Program-made: the position numbers and the translations under genes
Source: Bacillota bacterium
Lineage (GTDB): Bacteria; Bacillota; Clostridia; Christensenellales; Pumilibacteraceae
Length of the DNA: 33,827 nt
Direction of reading: 5' to 3'
Assembly: GCA_009781235.1 (NCBI GenBank)
Contig: WQYM01000005.1
Coordinates: 1-33,827 of the forward strand
Part shown: in pieces, positions 11,310-33,827 of the stretch
Layout: the number at the start of each line of letters is the position of its first letter
How positions within the stretch are numbered: position 1 is the first letter of the stretch
The notes under the pieces: generated by a model
What the model was told of the DNA's origin: nothing
Database searches by the model: none
What the model saw: only the letters and a program-made list of their open reading frames with translations

Positions 11310-11342
11310 CCGAATTGCAACGGTATTTTTTTTGTTTTAAAT

Positions 11343-11400
11343 ATTGTCAGGGGGACGGTGGTGTTGACAATATTGTCACTACCACCGTCCCCCTGACAAT
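11343..11400. repeat. 58-bp palindrome at the 3' end of the transposase gene
   Basis: Two 29-bp arms beginning ATTGTCAGGGGGACGGTGGT and ending in the reverse complement, with two mismatches. It overlaps the last base of the transposase stop codon. It is almost identical to the perfect palindrome at 12202-12259 on the other side of the gene. Confidence 0.95.
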
Positions 11401-12152
11401 TATTCTCTAAGCATGTTTCTTAGCTTTTCCCTGCTGACCCCAAGTAACACGGCGATGTCCCTAATGCTTGCGCCGCTTCTGTCTTTCAACTCCTCGACAA
11501 GCTTTCTTACCTGATTGACGTTCATGTTTCTTCCCGGAGTAATCTTGTAATCCTTGTTAAGCTCTAAAAAAACTTTCTCACAGTCTTCGTACTCTTTATC
11601 ATCGTGCTCAAGCCAACTTGTATCGGTTCTCTCCCCCATAATCGCCGTTATATTTTCAGGAGCAATATCATAAAAGATTGCTGCTTCGTCAAAATCGACA
11701 ATTCCCGTCCTTCTTAAATAGTTCGAGTAACTCGAAAACGGATAGTCCTCCGCTTTCTTAACCATTCCGGCTTTCAACGGATTATTCTGTATGTATGCCA
11801 TGCAATAAACCAACTGTCGTTCGCTTCGAATCATCTCACTCTTAAACCTATCTCTAAAAACGTACCCAACTCTGTTATTGATTCTATTGTAGTATCTCGC
11901 ATAATCCGCGTTCACGCGCTTAAAATACAAGGCCAATTCCTGCGCGTCAACAACGCTCAGTAAAATATGCGCGTGGTTTCCCATGACGCAAAACGCAAGT
12001 ATCTTTGCGGGATAATGAATCTTATTCTCTCGCAAGCAAGTCAAATAAAACCCCTTGCAGTGGTCATCGGGAAAAACAAATTCTTTCCCAATCCCCTGCA
12101 CCATCACGTGATAGTATTTTCCGTCTAAATCTTTTCTCGCTATCCTTGGCAT
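11400..12152 (-). CDS. REP-associated tyrosine transposase (RAYT, Y1_Tnp/IS200-like)
   Basis: This 250-aa single-strand transposase carries the HUH motif in GNHAHILL (H60, H62) and a catalytic Tyr in YIQNNPLKAG (Y120). The family N-terminus MPRIARKDLDGKYYHVMVQG and GYVFRDRFKSEMI are also present. Such enzymes nick and join one DNA strand at hairpin ends. Residues about 195-250 form a helix-turn-helix-like end (ASIRDIAVLLGVSREKLRNML). Two 58-bp palindromes bracket the gene, and related palindromes occur elsewhere in the window. This makes it a candidate mobiliser of the local REP-type repeats. The ATG lies 6 nt after a -10 box and has no Shine-Dalgarno site, so the mRNA is probably leaderless. 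Confidence 0.92.
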   Translation of the reverse strand: MPRIARKDLDGKYYHVMVQGIGKEFVFPDDHCKGFYLTCLRENKIHYPAKILAFCVMGNHAHILLSVVDAQELALYFKRVNADYARYYNRINNRVGYVFRDRFKSEMIRSERQLVYCMAYIQNNPLKAGMVKKAEDYPFSSYSNYLRRTGIVDFDEAAIFYDIAPENITAIMGERTDTSWLEHDDKEYEDCEKVFLELNKDYKITPGRNMNVNQVRKLVEELKDRSGASIRDIAVLLGVSREKLRNMLRE

Positions 12153-12158
12153 ATCGAC

Positions 12159-12187
12159 ATAATATCACAATTTATTCGGTCTGTCAA
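12159..12187 (-). promoter_or_regulatory. Transposase promoter, leaderless arrangement
   Basis: -35 TTGACA (12182-12187), 17-bp spacer, -10 TATTAT (12159-12164), then GTCGAT and the ATG. The expected +1 coincides with the A of ATG. No Shine-Dalgarno site is present. Confidence 0.75.
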
Positions 12188-12201
12188 CTATTTTTTGCAA
12201 T

Positions 12202-12259
12202 ATTGTCAGGGGGACGGTGGTAGTGACAATATTGTCACTACCACCGTCCCCCTGACAAT
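12202..12259. repeat. Perfect 58-bp palindrome between the transposase and the BspA-like gene
   Basis: Two exact 29-bp arms starting ATTGTCAGGGGGACGGTGGT. It lies 5 bp after the stop codon of the BspA-like gene (minus strand) and upstream of the transposase promoter. It could form a cruciform or a strong RNA hairpin. No U-tract follows on the minus strand, so a dedicated terminator role is doubtful. Confidence 0.97.
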
Positions 12260-12264
12260 AATTT

Positions 12265-14556
12265 TTACGGCCAGACTGCGGGCAGATCCGTTGCCGGGTC
12301 GTAATGCCAATGCCGGCCGTCCGCGACGGGGGCTTCGGAATAGTAATATACCGTCGCATTTTCAAGTCCCGGATTTTGCGCTTTGGCTATGGCATCCCAA
12401 GCCCCGGCTCCTGTGCCGCCGTAATACACGGCTTGCAGGTCAAAGTTAAACGCATCCAGCCCGATGAGCGTCACGGAAGCCGGTATCACAATGCTTATAA
12501 TGCCCGTGATCAAAAAAGCCCCTTGGCCGATATACTTTAAGCCCTCCGGCAACGTTACGCTCTTTAATTGGGAACAACTTTCAAATGCGTTTATGCCGAT
12601 AAACTCAACGGAATCCGGGAACGTGACGCGCTCTAAAAACCGGCAGCCCATAAAGGCCTCGGGGCAGATACCCCGCGTCGTGTCTTTCAGCGCGGCATGT
12701 AACATGTCCTGATCCGCAGCCGTCGGCCCTACCGCCCAATTGCTTAAATACCGAATACCGGCGACGGTTTCGTATTCCAGCTTAGTGCAGCCCTCAAAAC
12801 TCATGCCGCCGATTTCCGACACGCTGTCGGAAATCGTGATATTGATTAGCGAGCTGCAATTGAAAAACACGCAGTACCCGATGCTTATTGCACCGTTTAT
12901 CGTGATGTCCGTAATGGACGCGCAGCCGTAGAACGCGTAATCGCGGATACTGCCGCCGGTAACGGTTACCGATTTAAGCGACGCCGGAACCGAGGAATTT
13001 TGGTTGTTGTAGTTTGTCTCGCCGAAGATATACCCGAAATTGGTATTGCTTGTCGTCCACTTTGGGCCTGAACCAACAAACGGTAAGATGAGGCCCGTAA
13101 GCCCGTCGCAGCCCATGAATGCACCCAAATTAACGCTTTCAACACCGGAAGGAACCGTAAGGCTTAAAAGAGAACGGCAGCCCCAAAACGCGTACTCCCC
13201 GATGCTTCGCAAGCCGTCCGGCAGCGTAATGCTTTCTAAACTTTCGCAGCCCCAAAACGCAAAATCGCCGATGCTTGTCACGGAGGACGGTATTGTGACG
13301 CTCTTAAGCCGGCCCCAACCGGCAAACTCAAAGTCCCGGATACTTGCCGTGCCGCCCGGGATGACTGCGGTTTCCGGGTCTAGCTGCTGCGAGCTCTTGA
13401 GGCGCCCGAGCTCTCCCAGCACGGTTCCCTTGAGCACCGAACCGCCGGACACGTTGACCGGATAAAATACCCCGTTGCCGCTTTTCGCCATTTCCGCGTA
13501 AACGTCGCTCGCCGCGCTTTTGTCGGCTTCGGCGATACCGGAGTCGAAAACGCCCATGGCGGATAGCGTGACGCCGTCCGCCGCCATCGCCTTAATAGGC
13601 TCTAAAAACGCCCGATCGGCTTCGGCGGGGTACGGCCCCATACAGTTCATAAAAATAATATGTCTCTTGCAGGTCGGGATAATTTCATCCATGAACGTTT
13701 GCGCAGCGGCCGTCGCGGCGCCGTACACGCGGCCTTGCGTGGTGGCGATGCCGTTAATCGCGTCGTTAATCAAGACGGCGGCGCCCACCCTAGTTACCCC
13801 GGTCAATTCAAGCCGCTGCGTCGCGGTGGTGGCAAACGAAATAATCCCGACATAGTGGTTTTCGCCCATAGCGCTGACGGCCGTTTTCACGGCCTCGGCC
13901 TCCGCCCAAAGCCGGCTGCCAATCATAGTCGAGTCATACGGCCTCATGCCTGCCGTGGCATACGGTATGGCAGGCAGGCACATGGTAGTCGACGCGCCGA
14001 GCACAAACAACACCACCGTAGCATCCGCAAGTTTTTTTTCCTCTGCTTCTAATGCCGTCAGCGCTTCGGCGACGCCCGCGATGTTTTTTGCGTCCGCGCT
14101 AAGCCCGTCATAGCTGGAGCGCGCCGCAACGACTTTATCCCGGTACATCGGCATGGGCAAAAATGCATCGGCAGCGGCGGCCAGCGCGATAAACGCTCCC
14201 GCGGCGCTGACAGAGGGCCCTGGCACCCACTTTGCGTAAACGCTTACGGAGTCCGCGCCGTCGGGGATATCGGAAAAGCCGGTAAACGCCCGCCGAAACT
14301 CTACTTCGAAATACCAGCCGTCAAACAAATAACCCTCTTTTTGCGGGTTTTCCGGCATCGCCGTTCCGGGCTTTACCTCTACCGTTTGATAGATTTCGCC
14401 GCCTGAGATAAAGGTTACGGAAATTTGCTTGCCCGGCGGGTTATCCGGCGGTTTGCCCGTCCCGTCTTCCCCACCGCCCTTGATGCACGCCGCAAAACTA
14501 AACGCGCACAGCAACGCCGCCGCTATGATAACCGCGAGTTTGTTTATGCTTTTCAT
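12265..14556 (-). CDS. BspA-like leucine-rich-repeat lipoprotein with InlB B-repeat and degenerate vWA domain
   Basis: 763 aa from MKSINK. A lipoprotein signal peptide ends in AFSFAAC (Cys 24). Next come an InlB B-repeat (VTFISGGEIYQTVEVKPGTA to YAKW, about 45-110) and a von Willebrand A-like domain (about 180-365). At least eight BspA-type LRR_5 repeats (SVTIPSSVTSIGDFAFWGC, SITLPDGLRSIGEYAFWGC) and a C-terminal tail complete it. In the vWA part the MIDAS DxSxS is GASTT and the later Asp is lost (FMNCMG), so metal binding is doubtful. Such proteins are surface adhesins or host-interaction factors; the ligand here is unknown. This start was chosen because the signal peptide begins there and a consensus promoter places +1 at its first base. 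Confidence 0.85.
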   Translation of the reverse strand: MKSINKLAVIIAAALLCAFSFAACIKGGGEDGTGKPPDNPPGKQISVTFISGGEIYQTVEVKPGTAMPENPQKEGYLFDGWYFEVEFRRAFTGFSDIPDGADSVSVYAKWVPGPSVSAAGAFIALAAAADAFLPMPMYRDKVVAARSSYDGLSADAKNIAGVAEALTALEAEEKKLADATVVLFVLGASTTMCLPAIPYATAGMRPYDSTMIGSRLWAEAEAVKTAVSAMGENHYVGIISFATTATQRLELTGVTRVGAAVLINDAINGIATTQGRVYGAATAAAQTFMDEIIPTCKRHIIFMNCMGPYPAEADRAFLEPIKAMAADGVTLSAMGVFDSGIAEADKSAASDVYAEMAKSGNGVFYPVNVSGGSVLKGTVLGELGRLKSSQQLDPETAVIPGGTASIRDFEFAGWGRLKSVTIPSSVTSIGDFAFWGCESLESITLPDGLRSIGEYAFWGCRSLLSLTVPSGVESVNLGAFMGCDGLTGLILPFVGSGPKWTTSNTNFGYIFGETNYNNQNSSVPASLKSVTVTGGSIRDYAFYGCASITDITINGAISIGYCVFFNCSSLINITISDSVSEIGGMSFEGCTKLEYETVAGIRYLSNWAVGPTAADQDMLHAALKDTTRGICPEAFMGCRFLERVTFPDSVEFIGINAFESCSQLKSVTLPEGLKYIGQGAFLITGIISIVIPASVTLIGLDAFNFDLQAVYYGGTGAGAWDAIAKAQNPGLENATVYYYSEAPVADGRHWHYDPATDLPAVWP

Positions 14557-17822: not shown

Positions 17823-20800
17823 TTACATTTCAATAAACTCGCCGCCGGAAACGGCGAAAACGCTTTTGCGGGCGACGCGCTTTTTAAGAATCCGTCCGGC
17901 TGCCAAAGCGTAAAGCCCGATTTGCCTACGATAGGAAGCCATGAATTCTTCGGCGAGTTTGCCCGTTTTATAGTCGACAATCTCCACCATACCGTCCGCG
18001 TCCTCTATAAGCAGGTCGATAACGCCTTGCAGCAGTACGCCGTTTTCCATGCAATAGATAAACGGCAGCTCGCGGTAAAATTTCCGCCTACTCACGCGCT
18101 CCGCTATTTTTTCAAGCGCGGTATTGGCGGTGTTTTTTTGCAAAAGCCGCGCAAAATCGGGGTAGTTTTTTGAGAAGCCGTCGAAATTTTCGGGGAACGG
18201 CTTAGAAAAATCGGCGGTTTCTAAGAATTTGTGATAGGCGTCCCCGACATCGGTTCCGTACGCAGGTTCGGGGGGCGGGACTCGGGGCTCGGGGTTCGGG
18301 ATTCGGGGGTCGGGGCTCGGGACTCGGGGCTCGGGATTCGGGATTCGGGGGTCGGGATTCGGGGTTCGGGATATTAACTCGTCTTCTTTTAACTGACCAC
18401 TGAAAACTTCCCACTGACCACTGTCCAGGGGCTCGGGGGTCGGGATGGTTACGTTCATTCCCGTAGGGGTCGATTTACAAATCGACCCGCGGGCTGCACA
18501 CCGTGCAACCCCTACGGCTTGCCGGCTCGCGTCCCCTCCGTCGTTTTCTCGCGTCGCTTCGCTCCCCGCGCCTGTAAAAAACATGCCGCCGGCATATTTT
18601 TGCGGCTTCGCCGCACTCCGCCAGCGCATTTTTCGTTTTTCGTTTTTCGTTTCATTTGTAATTTGTTCCGGGACGCCCGATGGGTCGTTCCCTACGGAAA
18701 ATCCCCCTTCGCGCGCCAGTTGCGTTACCGTCGTCTTTACGGGCAATTGCGGGTGCGGGTACACAAAATCCGTGAACTTTCGGACGCAGGCAACAAAGTT
18801 TTCGCTCCCCTGCTTTTCCGGGGGGAGGTGTCGGGGGGACGGGGGCGTTGATTCAAAAATGCAAGATTTTTGAACCCCTGCGGGGCACTTCGCTACGCTC
18901 GTGTCACCACGCCTCGGGTCGCCGGACGGCGACCCTCCGTCCCCGGGCAGAGCCGCAACCAAGGATTCCTGATTCCCCGTAGGGCGGGGACTTGCTCCCG
19001 CCGTTGGGCTTGCTCCCGCCCCTACGGATTGCCGGCTCGCGTCCCCTCCATCGTTTTTCGTTTTTCGTTTTTCGTTTTTCGTTATATTTACCATCGCCGG
19101 GTACAGCCAGTCAAGCCAGCAGCGCGCGTCTATTCCCTCTTTGGGCTCGTAATCCTTCTTGATGCGGCTAAACAGCGCGAGATGGAATTTAGCACGCGTA
19201 CAAGCGACGTACAAAATCCGCATTTCCTCCTCGCACAGTTTTTTGCGCACCTCCAAGACCGCCCGGCGGTACAGGCTGGTTTTGACGGTTTGCCCGCCAA
19301 AAAGATCAAACCACTTAAGCACCGCGCCGAACTTTACATCCAAAATGCAGTCCCTTTTTACATCGTCGAGGTTGAAATTTTTTGAGAGGTTCGGGAGTAT
19401 TACGAACGGGAACTCGAGCCCCTTGGCGGCGTGCACCGTCATAATCCGCACCGCGTCCGCCTCTCCGCCGCCCGAAAGCTTAACCGCGCCCGCCTCCGCC
19501 GCCAAAAGTGCGGCGGCAAAGTCGCGCCCCGCCGAAAGAGCGGAGAGCCTGTCCAAAAACTTAGACAGCCCGTCCGCGGCGTTATGGGCGTCCGGAAGGC
19601 TGAAGGCATATTTAAAATAGTCGTGCTCGGCGCAAACCTTGCCTGCCAAATCCGCAAAGCTGAGTACCCGGGAAAGGTTTTCATAGCGCGCAAGGTTTGC
19701 AAACAGGGCTTGGAGTTTTTGAGAAAGTTCGGGATTCGGGGGTCGGGGGTCGGGGGTCGGGGCTCGGGGGTCGGAGCTCGGGGGTAAGGTATCAGGGCAC
19801 AAGGCACAAGGCACAGGTAATGGATAACGCATATCACCGATACCTGTGACTTGTGCCCTGATACCTATGCCCTCACTCCCATTCTTTCCGTCTTCTTTCA
19901 ACTGACAACTGACAACTGAAAACTGACAACTGTCTCCGGGATTCGGGACGGTTGCGCACATTCCCGTAGGGGTCGAAAGTCCATCCTGCGACCCGCTGCC
20001 GTTGTACGAGGAAAGTGCCGTGCCGGGGGGAGGGGTTGTCACGGGGACATAGTACTTGACAACCCTAACTTTTCCGGGGGGAGGTGTCGGGGGGACGGGG
20101 ACGTCGATTTCGGAAAGCAAGTTTCCGAAACCCCTTCGGGGCACTTCGCGCTGTGCGCTCGTGTCGCCGTAAACCCGTCCCCGGGCAGAGCCGTAACCAC
20201 CACGTCTCGCGTCGCCGTGCGGCGGCCCTCCGTCCCCGGGCAGAGCCGTGCCTGAGCATTCCCGATTCCCCGTAGGGCGGGGACTTGCCCCCGCCGTAAA
20301 GCACGCCACGTCCCCGGGCAAAGCCGTAACCTCACCATCCGCCCCTACGCCCTGACTCCTAACCAAAAATTCCCTCCGACATTCCTCATTCCTAATTTCT
20401 AATTCCTCACTTTCCTGTCCACTGAAAACTTCCCACTGACCACTGACCCCCGTAGGGGTCGATTTACAAATCGACCCGCCGTCCCCGGGCAGAGCCGTAA
20501 TCAAGGATTCCCAATCCCCCGTAGAGGTCGGGTCGCCGGACGGCGACCCTCCGTCCCCCTGCTGTGCCGTAACCGTACAATATTTTTCACACGCCTCAAA
20601 AAACGGCCAATCGCCGCCATCCGGTTGGGCATCCGCCCACAGGCGAATTTGAGCCAATTCCCCGTCGGAAAAATAGCCGCCCAACGGAGACTTTAACACG
20701 GAGACAAGCGCGATATCGTCGCGGCGGTTGTCGATCAGCCGCAGGTAATTGATCAGCCCCCGGATCGCCGGGTTTTCCGCGCCGTCCGCGCTTTTTTGCA

Positions 20801-23207
20801 TCGTTACGGGAACGCCCGCGCGCCGCAGCTTTTCGCTCAAAACCCCGGCAAACTTCCCCATCGAGCGCAGCAGCACCGCGATGTCGCCGAATTCCGCCGC
20901 CCGTTCCGCGCCGTCCTCGGCGATAAACCGCTTTTTAAGCGACAAAATGTGCGCCGTCACCGCATCGGCCTCGGCAGCTTCGGCGGAGGTGTCCGCATCG
21001 GCATCGGGGAATACGTGGTTTTTTACGCTGTACGGGGCTCGGGGGTCGGGCGTCGGGGTTCGGGGTTCGGGACGAGGGAAATTAGGAATTAGGAATGAGG
21101 AGTGAGGAACGGTGGAGGGATTGGGTGTGTTCATTCCCGTAGGGGGCGATGTCCTCGCTGGCCCGCCGGTTGCCAAGTCCCCCGCCAGCGCTGCAAGGCC
21201 TCTCTGCTCCCCGCCTACCGTTGTGCGGGCGCTCATTGCCGTGCCGGGGGGAGGTGTCAGGGGGACGGGGGTGTTGATGCCGAAAGGCAAGCTTTCGCCC
21301 CCCCTACGGGGCACTTCGCGCTGCGCGCTCGTGTCACCACGCCTCGGGTCGCCGTTCGACGACCCTCCGTCCCCGGGCAGAGCCGCAGCCACGGAGTCCC
21401 TCCGACATTCCTCACTCCTCACTCCTAACTCCTCATTCTTCCGACATTCCTCACTCCTCACTCCTAACTCCTCATTCTTCCGACATTCCTCACTCCTCAC
21501 TCCTAACTCCTCATTTCCCACAAGCCGGCACACCACCGGCTCGACGCCCAGCGCGCCCAAGCCCGTCTCGTTAAAGCAAGCCGTGCCCGCATAATCGACG
21601 CCGCCAAACTCGCGGGTCATCGCATCACTAAACACGCGGTCGCAAAAGCGCAATATCCCGCTGTCGCTGCGAAAATTTGCGTTTAAGCGGATTACGAACT
21701 TTTCGTCCTCATAACCCGCAAATATCCCCGGGTCGGAAAGCCGAAAGCCGTAAATGGACTGCTTGACGTCGCCCACGTAAAACCTTTTTGCCGCAATGCG
21801 GGAAAAAATTGCGTCCTGCAAGGGGTTGACGTCCTGAAACTCGTCCACCATCAGCCACCGGAACCTTGCGCCGATTTCCGCAGCTGCATCGGGGTTGCAC
21901 AAAATGCGGTACGCCGCGCGCTCAATGTCGTTAAAATCGCACCGGCTTTTGCGGCGCTTTTTTGCAGCAAAAATTTTTGCGGCGCTTTTAGCAAGCTCGA
22001 CCAAAAGCGCTGTATGCCCCGCCGCAAGCGCAGGGTCGGCGTACGACAGCGCCTCGTCGCGCTCCGCGCAAAAATCCTTGTACGCGCCCCGCAACTTTTT
22101 ATAGCGCTCGTAAAGCGCGGCCTGCGCATCGGACGCGGGTTTAATGACCGGGAGCCTTTTAAGCTCGCCCGCATCGGCAGCAACCTCGTCGTAAAAAACC
22201 GCGACAGAAGCGGCGCAAGACACAAAGCCTGCGTGCTCGCAAGTCGTTTTTAACTCTGCCGCACGCCGTAAAAACCCCCCAAGCAGGCTTTTATAATTCT
22301 CGGAAAGCGCCGCGATATGCCCGGCATGGCCTTGCGTCGCCGCAGCCGATTTTTCAAACCACGCGTCGGGGTCGGGGTGAATGGCGGAGAATTCGTATAT
22401 CCTTTTTACGATAGCCGCCATCCGTTTGTCGTTTCGGCGCGGCGAAAGGATTTCAAAAAGCTCCAAAAAATCGCCTTGGGTCCGGGGTTCGGAGCTCGGG
22501 GCCCGGGGTTCGGGATTCGGGGTTCGGGATATTAACTCGTCTTCTTTTAACTGTCCACTGTCCACCGTCCACTGTCCACTGTCTTGCGCCGCTTCGGCAA
22601 TCGCCTCGTCTACGGAAAGGTTTAGCAGTGCGTCCGACTCGGCCTCGTCCAACACCTCGAACGCGGGGTCGATGTCGTCGGCATAATAAAAATATTCGCG
22701 CGCGATAGAGGCGCAAAACGCGTCTATCGTGGAAATCTGCGCCGTCGGAAGCTGCCCGATGGCACGGGAAGCCCAAGTGGGGGGGCGGGGGTTGGGGATC
22801 GGGGATCGGGGCTCTGTGGTTGGGTATAAGGTATCAGGGCACAAGGCACAAGGCACAGGTAATTGATTTTGCATATCACCGATACCTGTGCCTTGTGCCT
22901 TGATACCTATGCCTTTTTCGGAAGTCGGGATTCGGGACATAAATCCATCTTCTTTCAATTGTCCACCGCCCACTGTCCACTGTCCACTAAGCTGCTGAAG
23001 CAGCTTAGTGCGCATATCGGCAGCCGCGGCTTTGGTGAACGTGCAGACTACCATGGAAGAAAGCTCCTCCCCTGCCGTCAAAAGCCTGAGGATGCGCTGA
23101 ATCATCACGGTCGTTTTACCGCTGCCGGCAGAGGCGGAAACTAAAATTTCGTCGCAGTCGCTTAAGATGGCCGCACGCTGTGCGGGAGTGAATCGGTCTA
23201 AATCCAT
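17823..23207 (-). CDS. addA: ATP-dependent helicase/nuclease subunit A with in-frame repeat insertions
   Basis: 1794 aa against about 1200-1250 in the family. AddAB is the RecBCD-type enzyme of Bacillota: it unwinds and trims double-strand breaks and makes 3' tails for RecA at Chi-like sites. Intact UvrD-type motifs: Q motif FTPAQRAAI, Walker A SASAGSGKTT (24-33), IDAFC, DEFQD near 455, GDVKQSIYGFR, LNANFRSD, HAAKGLEF near 1258 and YVACTRAK. The C-terminal nuclease has GVIDLLIE and DYKTGK (D1745). Six insertions made of heptamers, REPs and GC-rich cores (22772-22985, 22477-22583, 21034-21516, 19728-20575, 18813-19092, 18257-18655) lie between motifs and stay in frame. Without them the length is near normal. 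It starts 2 bp after addB, with AAAGAGGAC as ribosome-binding site. Confidence 0.93.
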   Translation of the reverse strand: MDLDRFTPAQRAAILSDCDEILVSASAGSGKTTVMIQRILRLLTAGEELSSMVVCTFTKAAAADMRTKLLQQLSGQWTVGGGQLKEDGFMSRIPTSEKGIGIKAQGTGIGDMQNQLPVPCALCPDTLYPTTEPRSPIPNPRPPTWASRAIGQLPTAQISTIDAFCASIAREYFYYADDIDPAFEVLDEAESDALLNLSVDEAIAEAAQDSGQWTVDSGQLKEDELISRTPNPEPRAPSSEPRTQGDFLELFEILSPRRNDKRMAAIVKRIYEFSAIHPDPDAWFEKSAAATQGHAGHIAALSENYKSLLGGFLRRAAELKTTCEHAGFVSCAASVAVFYDEVAADAGELKRLPVIKPASDAQAALYERYKKLRGAYKDFCAERDEALSYADPALAAGHTALLVELAKSAAKIFAAKKRRKSRCDFNDIERAAYRILCNPDAAAEIGARFRWLMVDEFQDVNPLQDAIFSRIAAKRFYVGDVKQSIYGFRLSDPGIFAGYEDEKFVIRLNANFRSDSGILRFCDRVFSDAMTREFGGVDYAGTACFNETGLGALGVEPVVCRLVGNEELGVRSEECRKNEELGVRSEECRKNEELGVRSEECRRDSVAAALPGDGGSSNGDPRRGDTSAQREVPRRGGESLPFGINTPVPLTPPPGTAMSARTTVGGEQRGLAALAGDLATGGPARTSPPTGMNTPNPSTVPHSSFLIPNFPRPEPRTPTPDPRAPYSVKNHVFPDADADTSAEAAEADAVTAHILSLKKRFIAEDGAERAAEFGDIAVLLRSMGKFAGVLSEKLRRAGVPVTMQKSADGAENPAIRGLINYLRLIDNRRDDIALVSVLKSPLGGYFSDGELAQIRLWADAQPDGGDWPFFEACEKYCTVTAQQGDGGSPSGDPTSTGDWESLITALPGDGGSICKSTPTGVSGQWEVFSGQESEELEIRNEECRREFLVRSQGVGADGEVTALPGDVACFTAGASPRPTGNRECSGTALPGDGGPPHGDARRGGYGSARGRVYGDTSAQREVPRRGFGNLLSEIDVPVPPTPPPGKVRVVKYYVPVTTPPPGTALSSYNGSGSQDGLSTPTGMCATVPNPGDSCQFSVVSCQLKEDGKNGSEGIGIRAQVTGIGDMRYPLPVPCALCPDTLPPSSDPRAPTPDPRPPNPELSQKLQALFANLARYENLSRVLSFADLAGKVCAEHDYFKYAFSLPDAHNAADGLSKFLDRLSALSAGRDFAAALLAAEAGAVKLSGGGEADAVRIMTVHAAKGLEFPFVILPNLSKNFNLDDVKRDCILDVKFGAVLKWFDLFGGQTVKTSLYRRAVLEVRKKLCEEEMRILYVACTRAKFHLALFSRIKKDYEPKEGIDARCWLDWLYPAMVNITKNEKRKTKNDGGDASRQSVGAGASPTAGASPRPTGNQESLVAALPGDGGSPSGDPRRGDTSVAKCPAGVQKSCIFESTPPSPRHLPPEKQGSENFVACVRKFTDFVYPHPQLPVKTTVTQLAREGGFSVGNDPSGVPEQITNETKNEKRKMRWRSAAKPQKYAGGMFFTGAGSEATRENDGGDASRQAVGVARCAARGSICKSTPTGMNVTIPTPEPLDSGQWEVFSGQLKEDELISRTPNPDPRIPNPEPRVPSPDPRIPNPEPRVPPPEPAYGTDVGDAYHKFLETADFSKPFPENFDGFSKNYPDFARLLQKNTANTALEKIAERVSRRKFYRELPFIYCMENGVLLQGVIDLLIEDADGMVEIVDYKTGKLAEEFMASYRRQIGLYALAAGRILKKRVARKSVFAVSGGEFIEM
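18257..18655. repeat. addA insertion 6: CTCGGGG/ATTCGGG heptamers, CACTGAC heptamers, REPs, TTTTTCG array
   Basis: GGGGCTC/GGGATTC/GGGGGTC heptamers (about 18265-18375) are read as PNPEPR and PSPDPR repeats. CCACTGAC-type units follow (18395-18425). Then a REP with GTAG (18463-18488) and an inverted REP (18491-18515) occur. A TTTTTCG array ends the block near 18627-18655. It lies just upstream of the nuclease domain of AddA. Short stretches in the middle may be native. Confidence 0.8.
18813..19092. repeat. addA insertion 5: GC-rich core, REP pair, TTTTTCG array
   Basis: The core begins CCGGGGGGAGGTGTCGGGGG and ends GTCCCCGGGCAGAGCCG. A REP pair with GTAGGGCGGGGAC follows (18976-19024). A TTTTTCG heptamer array (19049-19083) abuts native codons for VNI. 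It is read as PSPRHLPPEK, a different frame from the same core in insertion 3. Confidence 0.85.
19728..20575. repeat. addA insertion 4 (about 850 bp, largest)
   Basis: Contains GGGGGTC heptamers (19728-19785), the GGCACAA inverted pair (19788-19866), AACTGAC heptamers (19898-19931), REPs, a GGGGACATAGTACTTGAC unit (20036-20062), the GC-rich core and further REPs (20271, 20449, 20519). About 280 codons are read without a stop. Native AddA sequence (FFEACEKY on one side, LSQKLQALFANLARYENL on the other) continues on both flanks. Confidence 0.85.
19788..19866. repeat. GGCACAA heptamers as inverted pair, copy 1 (in addA)
   Basis: GGTATCAGGGCACAAGGCAC leads to three GGCACAA units. An inverted arm ends in CTTGTGCCCTGATACC. 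A second, nearly identical copy of 79 bp lies at 22829-22907, also in addA. Confidence 0.9.
21034..21516. repeat. addA insertion 3: composite element with 39-bp x3 end
   Basis: On the plus strand: GGGTTCG heptamers, GAATTAG/GAGTGAG heptamers, a REP-like unit (21137), the GC-rich core and three copies of a 39-bp unit (21394-21512) that contains the inverted heptamer. The 39-bp unit is read as NEELGVRSEECRK. The two ends carry the same GAGTGAG heptamer in opposite orientation. Confidence 0.88.
22477..22583. repeat. addA insertion 2: GGGGTTC and ACTGTCC heptamer arrays
   Basis: Roughly 107 bp. GGGGTTC/GGAGCTC/GGGATTC units are followed by a constant linker (ATATTAACTCGTCTTC) and then CCACTGT units. 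The same linker and array order occurs in insertion 6 (18365-18425). Confidence 0.85.
22772..22985. repeat. addA insertion 1 with GGCACAA inverted pair copy 2 and ACTGTCC array
   Basis: About 214 bp between native LLQQL and RAIGQLPTAQ. It includes the GGCACAA inverted pair (22829-22907) and CCACTGT heptamers (22965-22987). Its edge touches a perfect 26-bp inverted repeat (22985-23010). Confidence 0.85.
22985..23010. repeat. 26-bp inverted repeat at the edge of addA insertion 1
   Basis: CACTAAGCTGCT and AGCAGCTTAGTG arms flank GA. It encodes native-looking TKLLQQL. The heptamer array starts at its end. Confidence 0.8.
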
Positions 23208-23209
23208 GA

Positions 23210-26200
23210 TTAGTCCTCTTTAGAAAAAATCTCTTCCCGCCCTACCTTTGCATACTTGCGAACCCTGCCTTCCCCGTCCGCGCCAAAGCCGCACATCGCG
23301 CCAAAGCTACAGTAATCGCACACACCCTCGGCGGGGCTTGGCGCAATGTAACCCCCGCACATCTCCTCTAAAGCCTGCTGCGCCACCCGCACGGCGTATT
23401 CCGTCAGCCCGCCAAGCTCCCCCGTGCCCATGCCATACTCCGACTTTGCCATCGGAATAACGCCGTCCGCACCGGGCTTAACATTGCGCTTCGCCTCGAT
23501 GACCGGGCTCTTATACCCGGGCTCGATCAAGCGGCGGTCTGCGGCCGCCAAAAGCTCCCCGGAGTCATTATACACCCCGCATAGGCTGCGCGGCGGCTCA
23601 CCCGCCTCGATTAGCGGCTTTGAGAGCGGAAAGTAAAACATGCCGGCCCCTTGATAGCCGTTTTCCTCCAGCACCTTGGCGTACAGCGGAAGCTGGAGCG
23701 CGCGCCCGTAGTAGAGCTCTGTAGCCGAAAACTTGGGGAGCTTGCCGGTTTTATAATCGATAACGCGCGCAAACCCCCCAAAGGTATCGACGCGGTCAAT
23801 CTTGCCGCGCAGATAAACCGGGGAGGGGCGGGATTCGGGTCGGGGAGAATTAGGAATTAGGAGTGAGGAGTGAGGAACGGTGGAGAGATTGGGTGTGTTC
23901 ATTCCCGTAGGGGTCGATGTCCTCGCTGGCCCGCCGGTTGCCAAGTCCCCCGTAGGGGGCGCAAGTCCTCTCTGCAGCCCGCTGCCGTTGTGCGGTGGCT
24001 CTTGCCGTGCCGGGGGGAGGTGTCGGGGGGACGGGGACGTTGATTCAAAAAGGCAAGCTTTTTGAACCTCCTGCGGAGGCACTCCGCTGCGCTCCGTGTC
24101 ACCGTACCCGTCCCCGGGCAGAGCCGCAGCCACGGAATCCCTCCGACGTTCCTCACTCCTCACTCCTAACTCCTCATTCTTCCGACATTCCTCACTCCTA
24201 ATTCCTAACTCCTCACTCTTCCGACATTCCTCACTCCTCACTCCTAACTCCTCACTTTCCTGACCCCTAGCCCCTAAAAACGCCACCGTTTTTAGGTCGT
24301 TGCCGCGCGCGTGGCCGAACCGCAGCTCTAGACCCAACGGTTTAAACGCGCCCGCCGTGTACGATTCCGCGATGCGCCCGGCAAGGCGCGCGGCCTCGTC
24401 TACCGCGCGCGCCAAGAGGCGCTTGTTTTTTTCCAGCAGCGCGCCGAATTCTTCTTTAGCAATCGAGCCGGCAATCGCCCTCATGCGGTTTTCGGCGTCC
24501 TTAAAGCCGTCTAAAAAGCAGGCTTCGACAAAACGTTCCGCCGCCCGGTGCAAAAAGCTGCCGATGTCGGTAGGCCTGATTTCGCCCGTGTCGCGCTCTT
24601 TTAGCCGCAGCCCCCCGGCGGCAAAGCACCGGTATGGGCAGGCCAAATATTCCTCGAGCCGCGTGGCCGAAACGGTATTATCGCGAAAATAGAGCAAGGG
24701 AGTCCGGGGCTCGGGGCTCGGGGGTCGGGATTCGGGACGAGGAAAATTAGGAATTAGTAGTGAGGAGTGAGGAATAGCGGAGGGATTGGGCATGTTGTTT
24801 CCCGTAGGGGTCGGAGCCCGGCAGTTCGACCCGCTGCCGTTGTGCGGTAACTCTTGCCTTGCCGGGGGGAGGTGTCGGGGGGACGGGGGTGTTGGTTCAA
24901 AAAGGCAAGCTTTTTGAACCTCCTGCGGAGGCACTTCGCGCTGTGCGCTCGTGTCACCACGCCTCGGGCCGCCGCTTAGCGGCTCTCCGTCCCCGGGCAG
25001 AGCCGTAACCGCAGGACTTCGATTCTCCGCCAACGGCGATGCCCTCATCGCCCCGCCGTCCCCCTGCTGTGACGTAACCAATTTACAAAGCTCCGCCGTC
25101 ATCGGCAAGCCCCTGCCGCCTGCCCGCATGTCCGACAGCGCGCCGAGCAAAAGCTCCGCCGCGTTTGAAAGGGTGGAGATTTCGGCCGCCATTTCATTCA
25201 TTTTGGCCGCGTCGTTATGTTCCACCGCGTTGCGGAACGAAAGCCCGTCCGCTAAGCTCCGCCGCGTTTTTTCGACGGAATTGTGTACGACGCTTTTTGC
25301 GCCGCGCGTAACTGCGGACGCCAAATCCGAAATCCGGCTGTCCCCCGCAAGCGAGTACGCCAAAAAAAGCCGGTCGGCGGACGCTAAAACGCGCACCGCC
25401 TCGCACCGGGCGGCGCGAGCCAGCGCATCCGAATCCGGCCCGGCAGCCTTTCCCGCCGCCGAAAGAACGGCGTTATCCGCGTCGGAAAAAAGCCCCCCGG
25501 CTTCCCGGGCTTCAGGCAGAACGCCCTCGCAAAAATCGACGGCGAACACCTCTTTAAACCTCCCCGCGCGGAACGTTTCCGCGCCGCCCACCACTACCGC
25601 GTCCGCCGTTTCGTTGACGAGCGAAATGCCGGTCGCGCCCACACCCTCGGAGAAGAGGGAGAAGAGGGAATGAGGAGTGAGAAGTGAGGGGTGAGGAACG
25701 GCGGATGGGGAATAGGGGATGGGGGATGGGAATACAAATCCGTCTTCTTTTAACTGATCATTGACCACTGACCCCTGACCACTGACCCCCGCCAGCGCTG
25801 CAAGGCCTCTCTGCAGCCCGCTGCCGTTGTGTGAGAAAACTGCCGTGCCGGGGGGGAGGTGTCGGGGGGACAGGGACGTTGATTCAAAAAGGCAAGCTTT
25901 TTGAACCTCCTGCGGAGACACTTCGCTGCGCTCCGTGTCACCGTACCCGTCCCCGGGCAGAGCCGTAACCTCACCATCCGCCGCTACACCCTGATTCCTA
26001 ACCCAAAAATCCCTCCGACATTCCTCACTCCTCACTCCTAACTCTTCATTCTTCCGACATTCCTCACTCCTAATTCCTAACTCTTCATTCTTCCGACATT
26101 CCTCACTCCTCACTCCTAACTCCTCACTCACCTCCCCCCTAACCCCTGAAAGCTGACCCCTGTCCACTGACTCCTGGCCCCTGAAAACCGAAGTTAAAAA

Positions 26201-27580
26201 CTCCGCGGCCTCCAAGAGCCCGTCGTAAATTTGCCCCAAATCCGCGCCCGCGATTTCCGAGAGTTCCGCCGTTTTCTCTTTTGCACCGCATAAGGTAAAT
26301 ACGCCGCGCAAAAAATCACGGAACGCCTCGCCCGTTTTGGCGGACGCGAAAAGCTTGGCGAATTCGGCCAAGAACCCAACGAGCGAGGCGCGCACATTCT
26401 CGGCGGTTTTGGATTCGGGACTCTGGATTCGGGACTCTGACAAATGTGACAAATGGGGACGGATCCATTTGTCATTTTGACAAATGGATCCGTCCCCATT
26501 TGTCACTGGCCACTGACCACTGTCCCCCGCAAACTCCTCCAAAAACCCCTTGTAATTAACGCCCCGGCTCAATACGTACTCCTCAAAAATATCTGCGGCA
26601 CGCTTGTCGATGCCGGAATAATAGTTTTTTGACAATGCAATCATGTCTTGGCGGCGAAAGCGCCCGGCCGCCGAAACGCAAAGCTCTAAAAACCGGAACA
26701 GCTCGGTATCGCGCAAGTTAAGCTTGCGGTCGATGAAAAACGGGATATCAAATTCGGTTAAAATCCGCTCGATCGGCGCGTAATCGGCGGGGGGCGCCAG
26801 GATGCAAAAATCCCGGAACCGTGCGCCCTCTATCACGCCGCGCCGGATGCGCTTTGCCGTCGCTTTGACGCGGTCAGAAATCTCGGCCGCCTCAAAAAAC
26901 TCCATCTCGCCGAATGCATACGTCAGGCTTTCGACGTCGAAAAAGGTATAGGAGGCGGCTTTATCTTCAAAAATCGCCAAAACGTCGCGCTCTAACGCGG
27001 TAAACCGGTCGAAACCCGCGACATAAAAATGCGTGCACGAGAGGTCGTCGTAGGCAATATCGCGTGCAAGCAGCCGCATCCGCCCGGCCAAATCGACGAA
27101 TTTGTTTTCCGTTTCGGCCAAAAACCGCGTGTAGACGCGTGCGATGTCGGCCAGCTTTAAGCCTGCCGCGCCGCCTTTGCCGACAAAATCGGACGGCGCC
27201 AAGCCCGCGTTTGCCGCGACCGAGATTGTTTCGTACATTTTAGCGGCAAAGCCCGGAAGGCGCGCGCTGCTTTTAAAAACGCGGAAATCCTTTTTTACCT
27301 CGTCTACGATGCCGCGCACCAGCATCACCGCGCCGCCCGCCGATAAAAACCCGGGGTCGCGGCGCACAAATTTTTGAAAAAGCCGGTTAAACGTCAGCAC
27401 CTCGACGTCAAACGCGCCGGTTCCCCTTGTAAACAAAAATCGCTCCATGTAAATGGAGCATTTATCCGGGACGACAACGTAATGTTTCACGGCCAAATCG
27501 ACCGTGCGCGCGCATAAGCAATCGCGCACGGCCAAAAATGACGCGTAAAAGTCAGTAAAGGTTTCGACCCGGATTCCCAC
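23210..27580 (-). CDS. addB: ATP-dependent helicase/nuclease subunit B with in-frame repeat insertions
   Basis: About 1456 aa against roughly 1150-1170 in the family. AddB partners AddA in break resection; it carries a nuclease and an Fe-S cluster. Cluster cysteines are present: C981 (ACPYRC) and C1421-x2-C1424-x5-C1430 (VCDYCSFGAMC). The nuclease motif is RGKIDRV...DYKTGK. The N-terminus lacks the usual GRSGSGKT Walker A (VETFTDFYASFLAVRDCL in its place), while VVVPDKCSIYMERFLF is conserved. Four insertions (26405-26527, 25645-26190, 24695-25078, 23820-24285) stay in frame. I place the start at GTG 27580, because a promoter ends 6 nt upstream of it; an in-frame ATG at 27598 lies inside that promoter. 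Confidence 0.9.
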   Translation of the reverse strand: MGIRVETFTDFYASFLAVRDCLCARTVDLAVKHYVVVPDKCSIYMERFLFTRGTGAFDVEVLTFNRLFQKFVRRDPGFLSAGGAVMLVRGIVDEVKKDFRVFKSSARLPGFAAKMYETISVAANAGLAPSDFVGKGGAAGLKLADIARVYTRFLAETENKFVDLAGRMRLLARDIAYDDLSCTHFYVAGFDRFTALERDVLAIFEDKAASYTFFDVESLTYAFGEMEFFEAAEISDRVKATAKRIRRGVIEGARFRDFCILAPPADYAPIERILTEFDIPFFIDRKLNLRDTELFRFLELCVSAAGRFRRQDMIALSKNYYSGIDKRAADIFEEYVLSRGVNYKGFLEEFAGDSGQWPVTNGDGSICQNDKWIRPHLSHLSESRIQSPESKTAENVRASLVGFLAEFAKLFASAKTGEAFRDFLRGVFTLCGAKEKTAELSEIAGADLGQIYDGLLEAAEFLTSVFRGQESVDRGQLSGVRGEVSEELGVRSEECRKNEELGIRSEECRKNEELGVRSEECRRDFWVRNQGVAADGEVTALPGDGYGDTERSEVSPQEVQKACLFESTSLSPRHLPPGTAVFSHNGSGLQRGLAALAGVSGQGSVVNDQLKEDGFVFPSPIPYSPSAVPHPSLLTPHSLFSLFSEGVGATGISLVNETADAVVVGGAETFRAGRFKEVFAVDFCEGVLPEAREAGGLFSDADNAVLSAAGKAAGPDSDALARAARCEAVRVLASADRLFLAYSLAGDSRISDLASAVTRGAKSVVHNSVEKTRRSLADGLSFRNAVEHNDAAKMNEMAAEISTLSNAAELLLGALSDMRAGGRGLPMTAELCKLVTSQQGDGGAMRASPLAENRSPAVTALPGDGEPLSGGPRRGDTSAQREVPPQEVQKACLFEPTPPSPRHLPPARQELPHNGSGSNCRAPTPTGNNMPNPSAIPHSSLLIPNFPRPESRPPSPEPRTPLLYFRDNTVSATRLEEYLACPYRCFAAGGLRLKERDTGEIRPTDIGSFLHRAAERFVEACFLDGFKDAENRMRAIAGSIAKEEFGALLEKNKRLLARAVDEAARLAGRIAESYTAGAFKPLGLELRFGHARGNDLKTVAFLGARGQESEELGVRSEECRKSEELGIRSEECRKNEELGVRSEERRRDSVAAALPGDGYGDTERSGVPPQEVQKACLFESTSPSPRHLPPARQEPPHNGSGLQRGLAPPTGDLATGGPARTSTPTGMNTPNLSTVPHSSLLIPNSPRPESRPSPVYLRGKIDRVDTFGGFARVIDYKTGKLPKFSATELYYGRALQLPLYAKVLEENGYQGAGMFYFPLSKPLIEAGEPPRSLCGVYNDSGELLAAADRRLIEPGYKSPVIEAKRNVKPGADGVIPMAKSEYGMGTGELGGLTEYAVRVAQQALEEMCGGYIAPSPAEGVCDYCSFGAMCGFGADGEGRVRKYAKVGREEIFSKED
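23820..24285. repeat. addB insertion D: composite element with 39-bp x3 end
   Basis: Same order as addA insertion 3: GATTCGGG heptamers, GAATTAG/GAGTGAG array, GTTCATTCCCGTAGGGG REP, GC-rich core with TTCAAAAAGGCAAGCTTTTT, then three 39-bp units (24141-24255) with the inverted heptamer. It lies between native codons for LKTVAFLGA and VYLRGKIDRV. Confidence 0.88.
24695..25078. repeat. addB insertion C: composite element without 39-bp units
   Basis: GGGGCTC heptamers and the AATTAG/GTGAGGA array are followed by a REP-like unit and the GC-rich core. The right heptamer trimer is missing. Instead the block ends in a GATGCCCTCATCGCCCCGCC REP half and CCGTCCCCCTGCTGTGACG, close to native CKL. Confidence 0.85.
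25645..26190. repeat. addB insertion B: composite element with 39-bp x3 end and CCCCTGA-type heptamers
   Basis: Left end with GAGTGAG/GAAGTGA heptamers, a CACTGACC array (25760-25795), the GC-rich core, three 39-bp units (26008-26125), then CCCCTGA/CACTGACTC units. About 180 codons are open. Native sequence flanks it (SEGVGATGISLVNE and GLLEAAEFLTSVF). Confidence 0.85.
26405..26527. repeat. addB insertion A carrying a perfect 59-bp GGGGACGG palindrome
   Basis: ATTCGGGACTCT heptamer-like units precede the palindrome at 26447-26505 (28-bp arms beginning TGACAAATGGGGACGGATCC, centre TTT). CACTGACC/CACTGTCC heptamers follow. The palindrome has the same design as that at 33313-33371. Confidence 0.9.
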
Positions 27581-27586
27581 ACCGTA

Positions 27587-27615
27587 AGTATACGGCATTT
27601 GAAACGATTTTGCAA
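27587..27615 (-). promoter_or_regulatory. addB promoter, leaderless arrangement with GTG
   Basis: -35 TTGCAA (27610-27615), spacer 17 bp, -10 TATACT (27587-27592), then TACGGT and GTG. The spacing is identical to the transposase, BspA-like and lysA promoters. Confidence 0.65.
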
Positions 27616-29644: not shown

Positions 29645-29858
29645 AACGAAAAATGAAAAATGAAAAATGAAAAACGAGGGATAAGTGTTTGAGGGTTCAA
29701 GATATTCTTTCTTTTGTTCCCGCCAGCGTCGCACGGTGTGCGACCCGCCGGAACCAACACGGCTTATTACGATTGGATTTGCGGACGCTCATGCTTTGCG
29801 GCTTCCCTTTCCCGTCCGACGTTTTTCGTTTTTCGTTTTTCGTTATTCGCTATTCGTT
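29645..29858. repeat. Inverted heptamer element (ATGAAAA/ACGAAAA) between lysA and the protease
   Basis: The left array (29645-29677) has four units of ATGAAAA/ACGAAAA. The right array (29821-29858) has TTTTTCG and TTATTCG units and supplies the lysA stop codon. The core has GATAAGTGTTTGAGGGTTC, then CTTTCTTTTGTTCC, then a REP-like GTCGCACGGTGTGCGAC and the sequence shared with 27811-27955. Confidence 0.85.
29716..29824. repeat. Dispersed repeat copy (pair with 27811-27955)
   Basis: Shared segments are GTTCCCGCCAGCGTCGCACG, CCCGCCGGAACC, and TTGGATTTGCGGACGCTCAT with GCTTTGCGGCTTC. Both copies end in a TTTTTCG array. The 27.8-kb copy has extra REP sequence in the middle. Confidence 0.85.
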
Positions 29859-31387
29859 AAATCCTCGTCGCGTGCGGCAACATCCGCATACCCCTGCGGC
29901 CGCACAATAACCTGCGCTTTGCCGTGCCCGCACAGCACCACCGGCGGGACGGGGTTGCGGTTGTAATTGGACGCCATCGAAAAGTTGTACGCACCGGTGG
30001 AGAGGACGGCCAAGATGTCGCCGGAGGCTACGGACGCGGGGAGAGCGACTTTCTCAATCAGCGTATCGGTTTCGCAGCACTTGCCGGCAACGGTGAAGTT
30101 TTCCGTTGCACTCTCAAGCGCCTTATTCGCTACAATTGCGTCGTACTTTGCGTCGTAAAGGGTGTAGCGCGGGTTTTCGAACAGGCCGCCGTCCACCGCG
30201 ACGTAGTTTTTGAGACCCGGGATTTTCTTGACCGCGCCGACGGTGTAGAGCGTGGTTCCCGCCTCCCCTACCAAAGACCGGCCGGGCTCGATGATGAGCT
30301 TGGGGGCGCCGATTGACTTTTGCGCGATGCACGCGTTTAGCTTATCCGCAATCGCGCCGACGAATTCGGATAAGGGGGGCGGCTCGTCGCCGGGCAGGTA
30401 GCGTATCGCGTAGCCGCCGCCCATGTTGAGCTCGCGGACATCCCCGCCGATTTCCTTGCGGATTACGGCGATTAAATCTGTCATCCGGTCAACCGCCGCC
30501 AAAAACGGCTCGATTTCGAATATTTGAGAGCCGATGTGGCAATGGATGCCTAAAAAATCGAGGCAAGGGTGCGAGAGGATTTCTTTGACGGCGGGGATGA
30601 CGTCCTCCGGCAAAAACCCGAATTTAGAATCTGCGCGCGCGGTTTGAATAAAGTGGTGGGTGTGCGCGTCCACCTCGGGGTTGATGCGGATAAGAACGCC
30701 TTGACGGCGGGGAGAATGACGAATGACGAGTGACGAGTGACGAATTTCGGATGGGATTGCAGCGGAGTTTCCCGTAGGGGGCAACCCATTGGGCACCCCG
30801 CCGATACAAGCATCCGTCGTTTTTTGCGGGGCGCCCAATGGGTCGCCCCCTACGAGTTCGTTATTATCTCCATCCGTATTTGTAATTTGTAATTTATAAT
30901 TTGTAATTTCTTCTGAATCCGCTGACCCCTGACCCCTGACCCCTGACCCCTGACCCCTCGCCACCTCGGCCAGTGTCTTGATTTCATCAAAATGGTCGAT
31001 AACAATCGCGTGCACGCCCGCGTTGGCGCCGGCGGCAAGCTCCGCGCGCGATTTATTGTTGCCGTGAAGGTATAACCGCTGCGGGTCAAAGCCCGCGGCC
31101 AAAGCGGTGTACAGTTCACCGCCCGAGGCGACGTCGGCGCCTAAACCTAAAGGAGCGATGATTTGATATATCGCCTTGCAACCGAAAGCCTTGGACGCAA
31201 AGCACACCAAATTGTCCGGGTATTTTTTATCAAGCGTGCTTTTCATCTCCAAAGCGGCGGATTCGATGCGTCCCCGCTCCATCACATACAGCGGCGTCCC
31301 GAATTCCTTTGCCAAATCTTCCGCATCGCACCCGCCAAGCTCAAGATGCCCGTTTTTATTTATCGTAAGCGTACTTCGTAAGTTCAT
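29843..31387 (-). CDS. lysA: Diaminopimelate decarboxylase with repeat insertion
   Basis: LysA decarboxylates meso-diaminopimelate to L-lysine using PLP. 514 aa against about 420-440. Present are the PLP lysine in CFASKAFG (K66), the HCHIGSQI segment, NMGGGYAIRY, the EPGRSLVGEAG phosphate-binding loop, CCETDTL (substrate Cys at the dimer interface) and GAYNFSMASNYN. An insertion of about 85 residues (30704-30962) lies in the barrel between EIKTLAEVAR and RQGVLIRINPEVD, in frame. The ATG follows a promoter by 6 nt with no Shine-Dalgarno site. The last codons (LTNSE) come from a heptamer array. Confidence 0.95.
   Translation of the reverse strand: MNLRSTLTINKNGHLELGGCDAEDLAKEFGTPLYVMERGRIESAALEMKSTLDKKYPDNLVCFASKAFGCKAIYQIIAPLGLGADVASGGELYTALAAGFDPQRLYLHGNNKSRAELAAGANAGVHAIVIDHFDEIKTLAEVARGQGSGVRGQGSADSEEITNYKLQITNTDGDNNELVGGDPLGAPQKTTDACIGGVPNGLPPTGNSAAIPSEIRHSSLVIRHSPRRQGVLIRINPEVDAHTHHFIQTARADSKFGFLPEDVIPAVKEILSHPCLDFLGIHCHIGSQIFEIEPFLAAVDRMTDLIAVIRKEIGGDVRELNMGGGYAIRYLPGDEPPPLSEFVGAIADKLNACIAQKSIGAPKLIIEPGRSLVGEAGTTLYTVGAVKKIPGLKNYVAVDGGLFENPRYTLYDAKYDAIVANKALESATENFTVAGKCCETDTLIEKVALPASVASGDILAVLSTGAYNFSMASNYNRNPVPPVVLCGHGKAQVIVRPQGYADVAARDEDLTNSE
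30704..30962. repeat. lysA insertion: GACGAGT, REP pair, TTTGTAA and CCCCTGA arrays
   Basis: GACGAAT/GACGAGT heptamers (30715-30750), a GTAGGGGGCAACCCATTGGG REP and its inverse (30773-30855), TTTGTAA units (30880-30910) and five tandem GACCCCT units (30923-30958). Read as GQGSGVRGQGS, TNYKLQITN and SEIRHSSLVIRHS within LysA. Confidence 0.88.
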
Positions 31388-33243: not shown

Positions 33244-33312
33244 ACCGTAACATTATCACAAGCCGAATAAAAAAGCAAGCGATTCGCCTACTCTTTTTGA
33301 GAGCGGGCATTT

Positions 33313-33371
33313 TGACAAATGGGGACGGGTCTATTTGCCAAATTGGCAAATAGACCCGTCCCCATTTGTCA
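33313..33371. repeat. Perfect 59-bp GGGGACGG palindrome at the stop of the carboxypeptidase gene
   Basis: 28-bp arms begin TGACAAATGGGGACGGGTCT around a 3-nt centre (AAT). The TGA at its outer end is the stop codon of the carboxypeptidase gene. Same architecture as 26447-26505 in addB. Confidence 0.95.
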
Positions 33372-33827
33372 CCATCCGGCAATCGCATCGCCTACGATGT
33401 CTAAATACGTTTTCTTCTTGACGTCGTTTTCGGCGACGAGGTTTACGCGGCCCGCCTCGACGCCGTCCACTTTTACGACCAGCTCGCCCGCCACCTGATT
33501 CATCGCGACGGGCGCGGTGAGTTTTTGCACCGTCGGCTCGCTCGCCACCTCGCGCTTGCCCTTCTTGCCGAAATAATACAAATCGTCCGCAGGCACTACG
33601 TTCACAAATTCCGCCTTGCCTTTTTCGACGCGCACGGGGTCAACGACCGCCGCGCCCTTTTCGACAAGTCGGCGCGTCTCGTAATTGGCAAAGCCGTAGT
33701 TAAACAGCTTGGCGTTTTGGGCGTTGCGCTCTTTAGAGGTCGCCGCGCCCATCACCACGCTTATGAGCCGGGTTTGCCCGCGCTTAGCGGTGGCGGAGAG
33801 GCAGTACATCGCCTCGGTGGTAAAGCC
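33369..33827 (-). CDS. dacA: D-alanyl-D-alanine carboxypeptidase (PBP5 family), C-terminal part
   Basis: 153 codons; the N-terminal part with the Ser-x-x-Lys active site lies outside the window. The first residues GFTTEAMYCLSATAKR follow the KTG motif of the transpeptidase fold in this family (KTGFTxxAG-CL). RLISVVMGAATSKERNAQ and LFNYGFANYE close the catalytic domain. Then a PBP5_C beta domain (VAMNQVAGELVVKVDGVEAG) ends at AGW with no evident amphipathic membrane anchor. The enzyme trims the terminal D-Ala of peptidoglycan stem peptides. The stop codon is the outer triplet of a 59-bp palindrome. The symbol is given for the family only. Confidence 0.85.
   Translation of the reverse strand, partial: GFTTEAMYCLSATAKRGQTRLISVVMGAATSKERNAQNAKLFNYGFANYETRRLVEKGAAVVDPVRVEKGKAEFVNVVPADDLYYFGKKGKREVASEPTVQKLTAPVAMNQVAGELVVKVDGVEAGRVNLVAENDVKKKTYLDIVGDAIAGW

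Follow-up and report, generated by a model that had tools for sequence, protein, structure and literature searches.

Intragenic repeats of the GTAG/CGTC REP type have been reported in other phyla, where many of them lie in uvrABC, recBCD, DNA ligase and tRNA synthetase genes, and Y1 transposase genes located between long terminal repeats have been described as TIR-associated tyrosine transposases (TIRYT; PMC3733652). In addition, the heptamer arrays of cyanobacteria, Beggiatoaceae and Xanthomonas comprise one or few units that form direct arrays (PMC4679880, PMC4692102). Beyond PMC3733652, nothing linking AddAB to selfish repeats was found in the literature. Here, we have analyzed a stretch of 33 827 nucleotides (the window, on contig 5 of a draft genome of 2.53 Mb, 247 contigs and 87% completeness) in which a recombination enzyme, AddAB, carries blocks of repeated sequence. 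As originally predicted, both subunits were invaded, with seven blocks in addA and four in addB, and the only other conserved enzyme gene of the window with an internal block was lysA (Table 1). A repeat flagged at 13142-13354 as a further insertion was rejected, as it belongs to a leucine-rich-repeat protein.

Table 1 Features of the window and examples of heptad-ended elements on sampled contigs
Feature	Position	Strand	Size	Remarks
addA	17823-23207	minus	1794 aa	Host of seven merged blocks (11 heptad arrays); NCBIfam addA_Gpos
addA blocks (seven)	18265-22984	minus		18265-18536, 18629-18666, 18805-19098, 19724-20575, 21021-21522, 22478-22590, 22777-22984
addB	23210-27598	minus	1462 aa	Host of four in-frame blocks; NCBIfam addB_Gpos, Pfam PDDEXK_1 and ADDB_N, 3u44_B
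addB block 1	26402-26527	minus	~30-40 aa	Short heptad arrays either side of a perfect palindrome; loop 343-353, same-genus AddB numbering
Palindrome in addB block 1	26447-26505	none	59 bp	Perfect, read as codons; 28-bp arms, 3-nt centre, extendable by one pair
addB block 2	25650-26185	minus	~164 aa	Nested heptad arrays of several units, hairpin module; loop 433-438, same-genus AddB
addB block 3	24699-25087	minus	98 inserted residues aligned	Hairpin module, heptad arrays; between residues 632 and 661, same-genus AddB
addB block 4	23830-24290	minus	~144 aa	39-bp units, hairpin module, inverted heptad arrays; loop after residue 795, same-genus AddB
39-bp unit, tandem	21328-21558 (addA); 24069-24299, 25941-26171 (addB)		39 bp (13 codons)	Built of heptamers
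lysA internal block	30707-30967	minus		Inside lysA, 29843-31387
Y1-transposase gene with terminal repeats	11339-12263	minus		ORF 11400-12152; PF01797 match 11781-12116; ~62-bp self-complementary repeats carrying GGGGGACGG
Intergenic relative of addB palindrome	33312-33372			
Inverted-pair elements, examples	L039:17881-18026, L026:2756-2908, L093:19418-19622		~150 bp	Sampled contigs

The addB gene reads as a single uninterrupted frame whose product has ADDB_N at the N-terminus and a PD-(D/E)XK nuclease at the C-terminus, as judged by family models and by 3u44_B. Alignment with 15 AddB sequences of the family revealed four internal insertions that were absent from all aligned sequences and lay at the places first claimed, although the block edges are approximate. 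In two same-genus species the AddB frames are open, free of inserts and 1009 and 1010 aa long, and compared with the same genus approximately 460 of the 1462 residues were inserted. The nearest addB was only ~45% identical, too distant to define a precise empty site or a target-site duplication. For AddA, the same-genus protein comprises 1068 aa in an open frame, and its first 65 aa had no alignment to the present AddA; with this segment considered, approximately 790 of the 1794 AddA residues appeared to be inserted.

In spite of this load, the addA and addB frames are fully open across 9.8 kb, and the helicase motifs, nuclease motifs and Fe-S cysteines of AddAB are all intact and all located outside the blocks. 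The earlier claim that the Fe-S cysteines and the nuclease motif are preserved in addB was confirmed, with all four cysteines (CPYRC at 987 and CDYCSFGAMC at 1427) and the motif (GKIDRVD at 1265 and DYKTGK at 1281) present. We also mapped the insertion sites on a predicted model of a same-genus AddB (mean pLDDT 82.8). Three of the four insertion points corresponded to predicted loops, and the fourth fell in a stretch that includes a very-low-confidence linker. Loops of at least four residues make up 23% of the same-genus AddB chain, and the probability of three loop sites by chance was 0.01, a value that should be read together with the fact that aligners, too, favour gaps within loops. It is probable that translation turns the blocks into disordered loops and that AddAB has remained active.

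With regard to their composition, the AddAB blocks consist of nested dispersed repeats, namely arrays of 7-bp units, hairpin modules and the ~60-bp palindrome; it is because of this nesting that block 2 of addB holds arrays of several units. Tandem heptamer arrays were dispersed through the genome in the manner of cyanobacterial STRRs, at 33.7 lag-7 arrays per 100 kb, with other lags giving no more than 4.5 except the multiple 14, and a base-shuffled sample contained no array, which places the arrays well above chance. The density of lag-7 arrays in a same-genus genome was 5.0 per 100 kb, and each of the 21 arrays sampled there was intergenic. Among neighbouring arrays 15-400 bp apart, there were 78 inverted pairs of the same unit versus ~9 expected, and direct pairs of the same unit were near expectation (14 versus ~9). 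The paired inverted arrays border elements of ~150 bp with matching units at both ends, the inner junctions often being GGAT...ATCC, and the units differed among elements (30 distinct ones, the same-genus sample included). These heptad-ended elements resemble MITEs in being short and non-coding with inverted ends, and the sample yielded no clear case of an autonomous element between matching heptad arrays. The literature searched contained no precedent for inverted arrays that match at both ends and use many different units. Tentatively, the source of the blocks may be a class of fold-back elements ~150 bp long, each ended by inverted arrays of a single heptamer that varies from one element to the next; copying from one arm to the other, or capture during insertion, would keep the ends alike, rather than a fixed transposase site, and the class would invade enzyme genes in frame throughout the genome. 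How elements with matched but variable heptamer ends copy themselves is a testable question.

The larger blocks also hold a hairpin module (coding-strand sequence CGGCTCTGCCCGGGGACGG), which was present in nine genes in identical orientation. In a named genome collection the module had eight exact matches, each the sole match in an unrelated genome, and these were attributed to chance. Duplication of the 39-bp unit, which occurs in tandem in addA and twice in addB, is frame-neutral, and its tag GAATGTCGGA was mostly genic and in sense orientation (11 of 17).

The 59-bp palindrome reported in one addB block proved to be perfect and read as codons when its arms were checked exactly. Thirteen such palindromes, itself included, were found in the sample, and among them are the terminal repeats of the Y1-transposase gene at 11339-12263. 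With several genomic copies and an in-frame reading in addB, it can be assigned to the intragenic palindromic elements of the RPE/REP type; CGTC was located within the paired arms and does not form an unpaired tag at one end. Some copies carry GGGGACAG, consistent with the GGGGWSAS motif reported previously (PMC3733652). The window also contains an element with the features of a TIRYT, that is, a transposase gene between long terminal inverted repeats together with dispersed copies of the repeat. The addB palindrome resembles the terminal repeats of this element in type and is not an identical copy (GACAAATGGGGACGG versus GTCAGGGGGACGG), and the Y1-transposase gene is a candidate relative of whatever moves the palindromes. 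Seven Y1 matches were observed in the genome.

The load of addAB was compared with that of other genes across 1.0 Mb of sampled sequence (40% of the genome), in which genes were called by a simple codon-based caller, genes at contig ends were counted in part and stretches picked for containing the module were left out of the background. The main counts were those of heptad arrays, since dispersed-repeat blocks alone inflate leucine-rich-repeat proteins. There were 2.3 arrays per core kb in addA and 1.7 in addB versus 0.16 in other genes, which places addAB approximately tenfold above the average gene. Non-coding DNA had 1.16 arrays per kb, whereas coding DNA had 0.21, and the number of merged blocks in addAB (11) equalled that expected at the non-coding density (10.3). 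Per-gene array counts were strongly overdispersed (k = 0.16), and because of this the status of addAB as a Poisson outlier (P ~1e-16) was rejected. Under an overdispersed model the per-gene probabilities were 0.0045 for addA and 0.012 for addB, values that do not survive a genome-wide choice of genes, and among 61 other invaded genes 10 were denser than addA and 14 were denser than addB. In the count of insertions per kb proposed earlier, addAB was therefore enriched over the average gene in this 40% sample, but not over other heavily invaded genes: AddAB is among the most heavily loaded genes, yet it is no special target.

A broad set of genes was invaded, including uvrC, ligA, mutL, mfd, pcrA, recD2, dnaX, ileS, valS, leuS, metG and carB, as well as those for formate-THF ligase, thrC, argJ, ribBA, folB-K, trmFO, a metH-like gene and lysA. 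Loads comparable to that of addAB were observed in mutL, uvrC, ligA, ileS, valS, metG, argJ and folB-K. For example, mutL (contig 9, L204:7354-9693) has eight heptad arrays in 779 aa and is denser than addA, and mutS just upstream has none. Blocks were also absent from mutS2, uvrA, recN, recF, smc, priA, gyrA, gyrB, secA and rpoB (mutS, mutS2, rpoB, smc, recN and recF were named by the finding family search and length). Several other loci were noted. The adjoining pcrA and ligA genes on contig 29 (L030:1106-6084) are both invaded, with one and four arrays, respectively. The densest large gene of the sample is an open frame of 943 aa without a family match, which contains nine heptad arrays (contig 107, L067:5939-8767). 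In a ribosomal-protein operon (contig 7:19000-33705, L206), paired heptad arrays occupy many intergenic gaps and the ribosomal genes are apparently free of them.

On the basis of these distributions, a mechanistic coupling of repeat movement to AddAB, in which repeats prefer the two loci as targets or spread because of altered AddAB activity, appears very improbable. It is true that addA and addB are in the top tail of array number, that 8 of the 20 exact genomic copies of one module sit in addAB and that intragenic palindromic repeats have also been described from recBCD and further repair genes in other phyla (PMC3733652). However, tRNA synthetases, mutL, uvrC, ligA, argJ and folB-K showed similar densities, many repair genes were empty, and repair/replication genes picked by family and blinded to blocks were not enriched (3 of 11 invaded versus 37 of 198 genes of at least 1.2 kb, P = 0.35). 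Together with the overdispersion and the denser genes, this leaves the coupling raised in the original prediction unsupported. A class-wide preference for enzymes of genome maintenance and tRNA charging, for example as slow, low-abundance multidomain enzymes with AddAB as one member, is less remote and still rather unlikely. All four tRNA synthetases of family PF00133 were invaded (P = 0.0015), as were addA, addB, mutL, uvrC, ligA, mfd, pcrA and recD2, and the mix matches the uvrABC, recBCD, DNA ligase and tRNA synthetase genes that harbor REP repeats (PMC3733652); yet the repair part reached significance only when genes chosen post hoc were added (6 of 14, P = 0.04), and metabolic enzymes were invaded too (lysA, argJ, thrC, carB, formate-THF ligase, metH-like and folB-K).

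The remaining alternatives concern the locus itself. Composite blocks at 21367 in addA and 24108 in addB are mutual best matches (85% over 455 bp), and a third block, at 25947 in addB, is closest to that at 24108, so the high count might reflect one event followed by local duplication within addAB; this reading was already weakened by the fact that most other addAB modules best-match other contigs, at up to 90% identity, and we consider it doubtful. Decay, in which the blocks have inactivated addAB and selection is gone, would fit a block density equal to that of non-coding DNA and the large inserted share of each protein, but it is improbable given the open frames and intact motifs of both genes and the presence of blocks in genes for essential-type enzymes (ileS, valS and ligA).

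Instead, the addAB blocks are quite probably accounted for by selection-filtered insertion of dispersed elements that persist in the loops of tolerant enzymes. Non-coding elements of three kinds (the ~150-bp elements ending in heptamer arrays, the hairpin modules and the ~60-bp palindromes akin to Y1-transposase terminal repeats) would multiply chiefly in intergenic DNA, land genome-wide, presumably by transposition, and then enlarge via nesting and tandem duplication. Gene-breaking copies would be purged by purifying selection, and coding copies would survive only if they had a frame-keeping length, a stop-free orientation and a site where a tolerant enzyme exposes a loop. Being long, tolerant and rich in suitable loops, AddA and AddB would therefore have come to hold many blocks. 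Selection-filtered insertion is supported by the absence of the inserts from relatives, the intergenic excess, the intact motifs and the invasion of genes for essential-type enzymes (ileS, valS, metG and ligA). It is also favoured by the non-coding-like density of merged blocks in addAB, the uniform orientation of the hairpin module, the loop positions of the AddB inserts, the array pairs between ribosomal-protein genes, the terminal-repeat type of the addB palindrome and the intergenic location of every array in the same-genus sample. An open frame was found in 37% of long intergenic blocks and in 100% of genic blocks, the latter being partly a consequence of gene calling. On the other hand, uvrA and recN, for example, encode long proteins and carry no block, and the sample contained no autonomous element ended by heptad arrays. 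Invaded and uninvaded genes were alike in a codon-usage proxy for expression (P = 0.96), and low expression was rejected as the cause of tolerance; because this proxy fails to separate the gene sets, the basis of tolerance is established only as far as the loops.

The locus represents an extreme natural experiment in the foreign-sequence load of a conserved enzyme, as, judged against the same genus, inserted repeats make up almost half of AddA and one-third of AddB and the motifs are intact. Our data also correct a tempting link to break repair, and the earlier, unexplained report that intragenic repeats often occur in repair genes agrees with them (PMC3733652).

Compared with known systems, the present genome shows the gene pattern of PMC3733652 again, produced by different repeats and much larger inserts. 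As with Rickettsia palindromic elements and intragenic REPs (PMC3733652), short palindromic repeats are found in frame in conserved protein genes; however, REP clusters encode at most 43-82 aa (PMC3733652), whereas single blocks here reach ~290 aa and AddA has gained ~790 aa, heptamer arrays and hairpin modules account for most of the block mass, and the host belongs to a different lineage. The Y1-transposase gene of the window is, like a TIRYT, flanked by long self-complementary terminal repeats and accompanied by dispersed related palindromes, one of them in addB, but the latter is a relative of the terminal repeats and its movement here is presumed. The BrickBuilt MITE of Porphyromonas gingivalis (PMC4596501) is likewise a miniature inverted-repeat element with a tandem repeat; its 23-bp unit is internal and it is always intergenic, whereas here 7-bp arrays form the two ends. 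Finally, like the heptamer repeats of cyanobacteria, Beggiatoaceae and Xanthomonas, the present arrays are dispersed, mostly intergenic and now and then in frame, and some G-rich units resemble the GGGNATC type, but they differ in comprising 30 units, in forming inverted pairs and in having matching units at both ends of an element.
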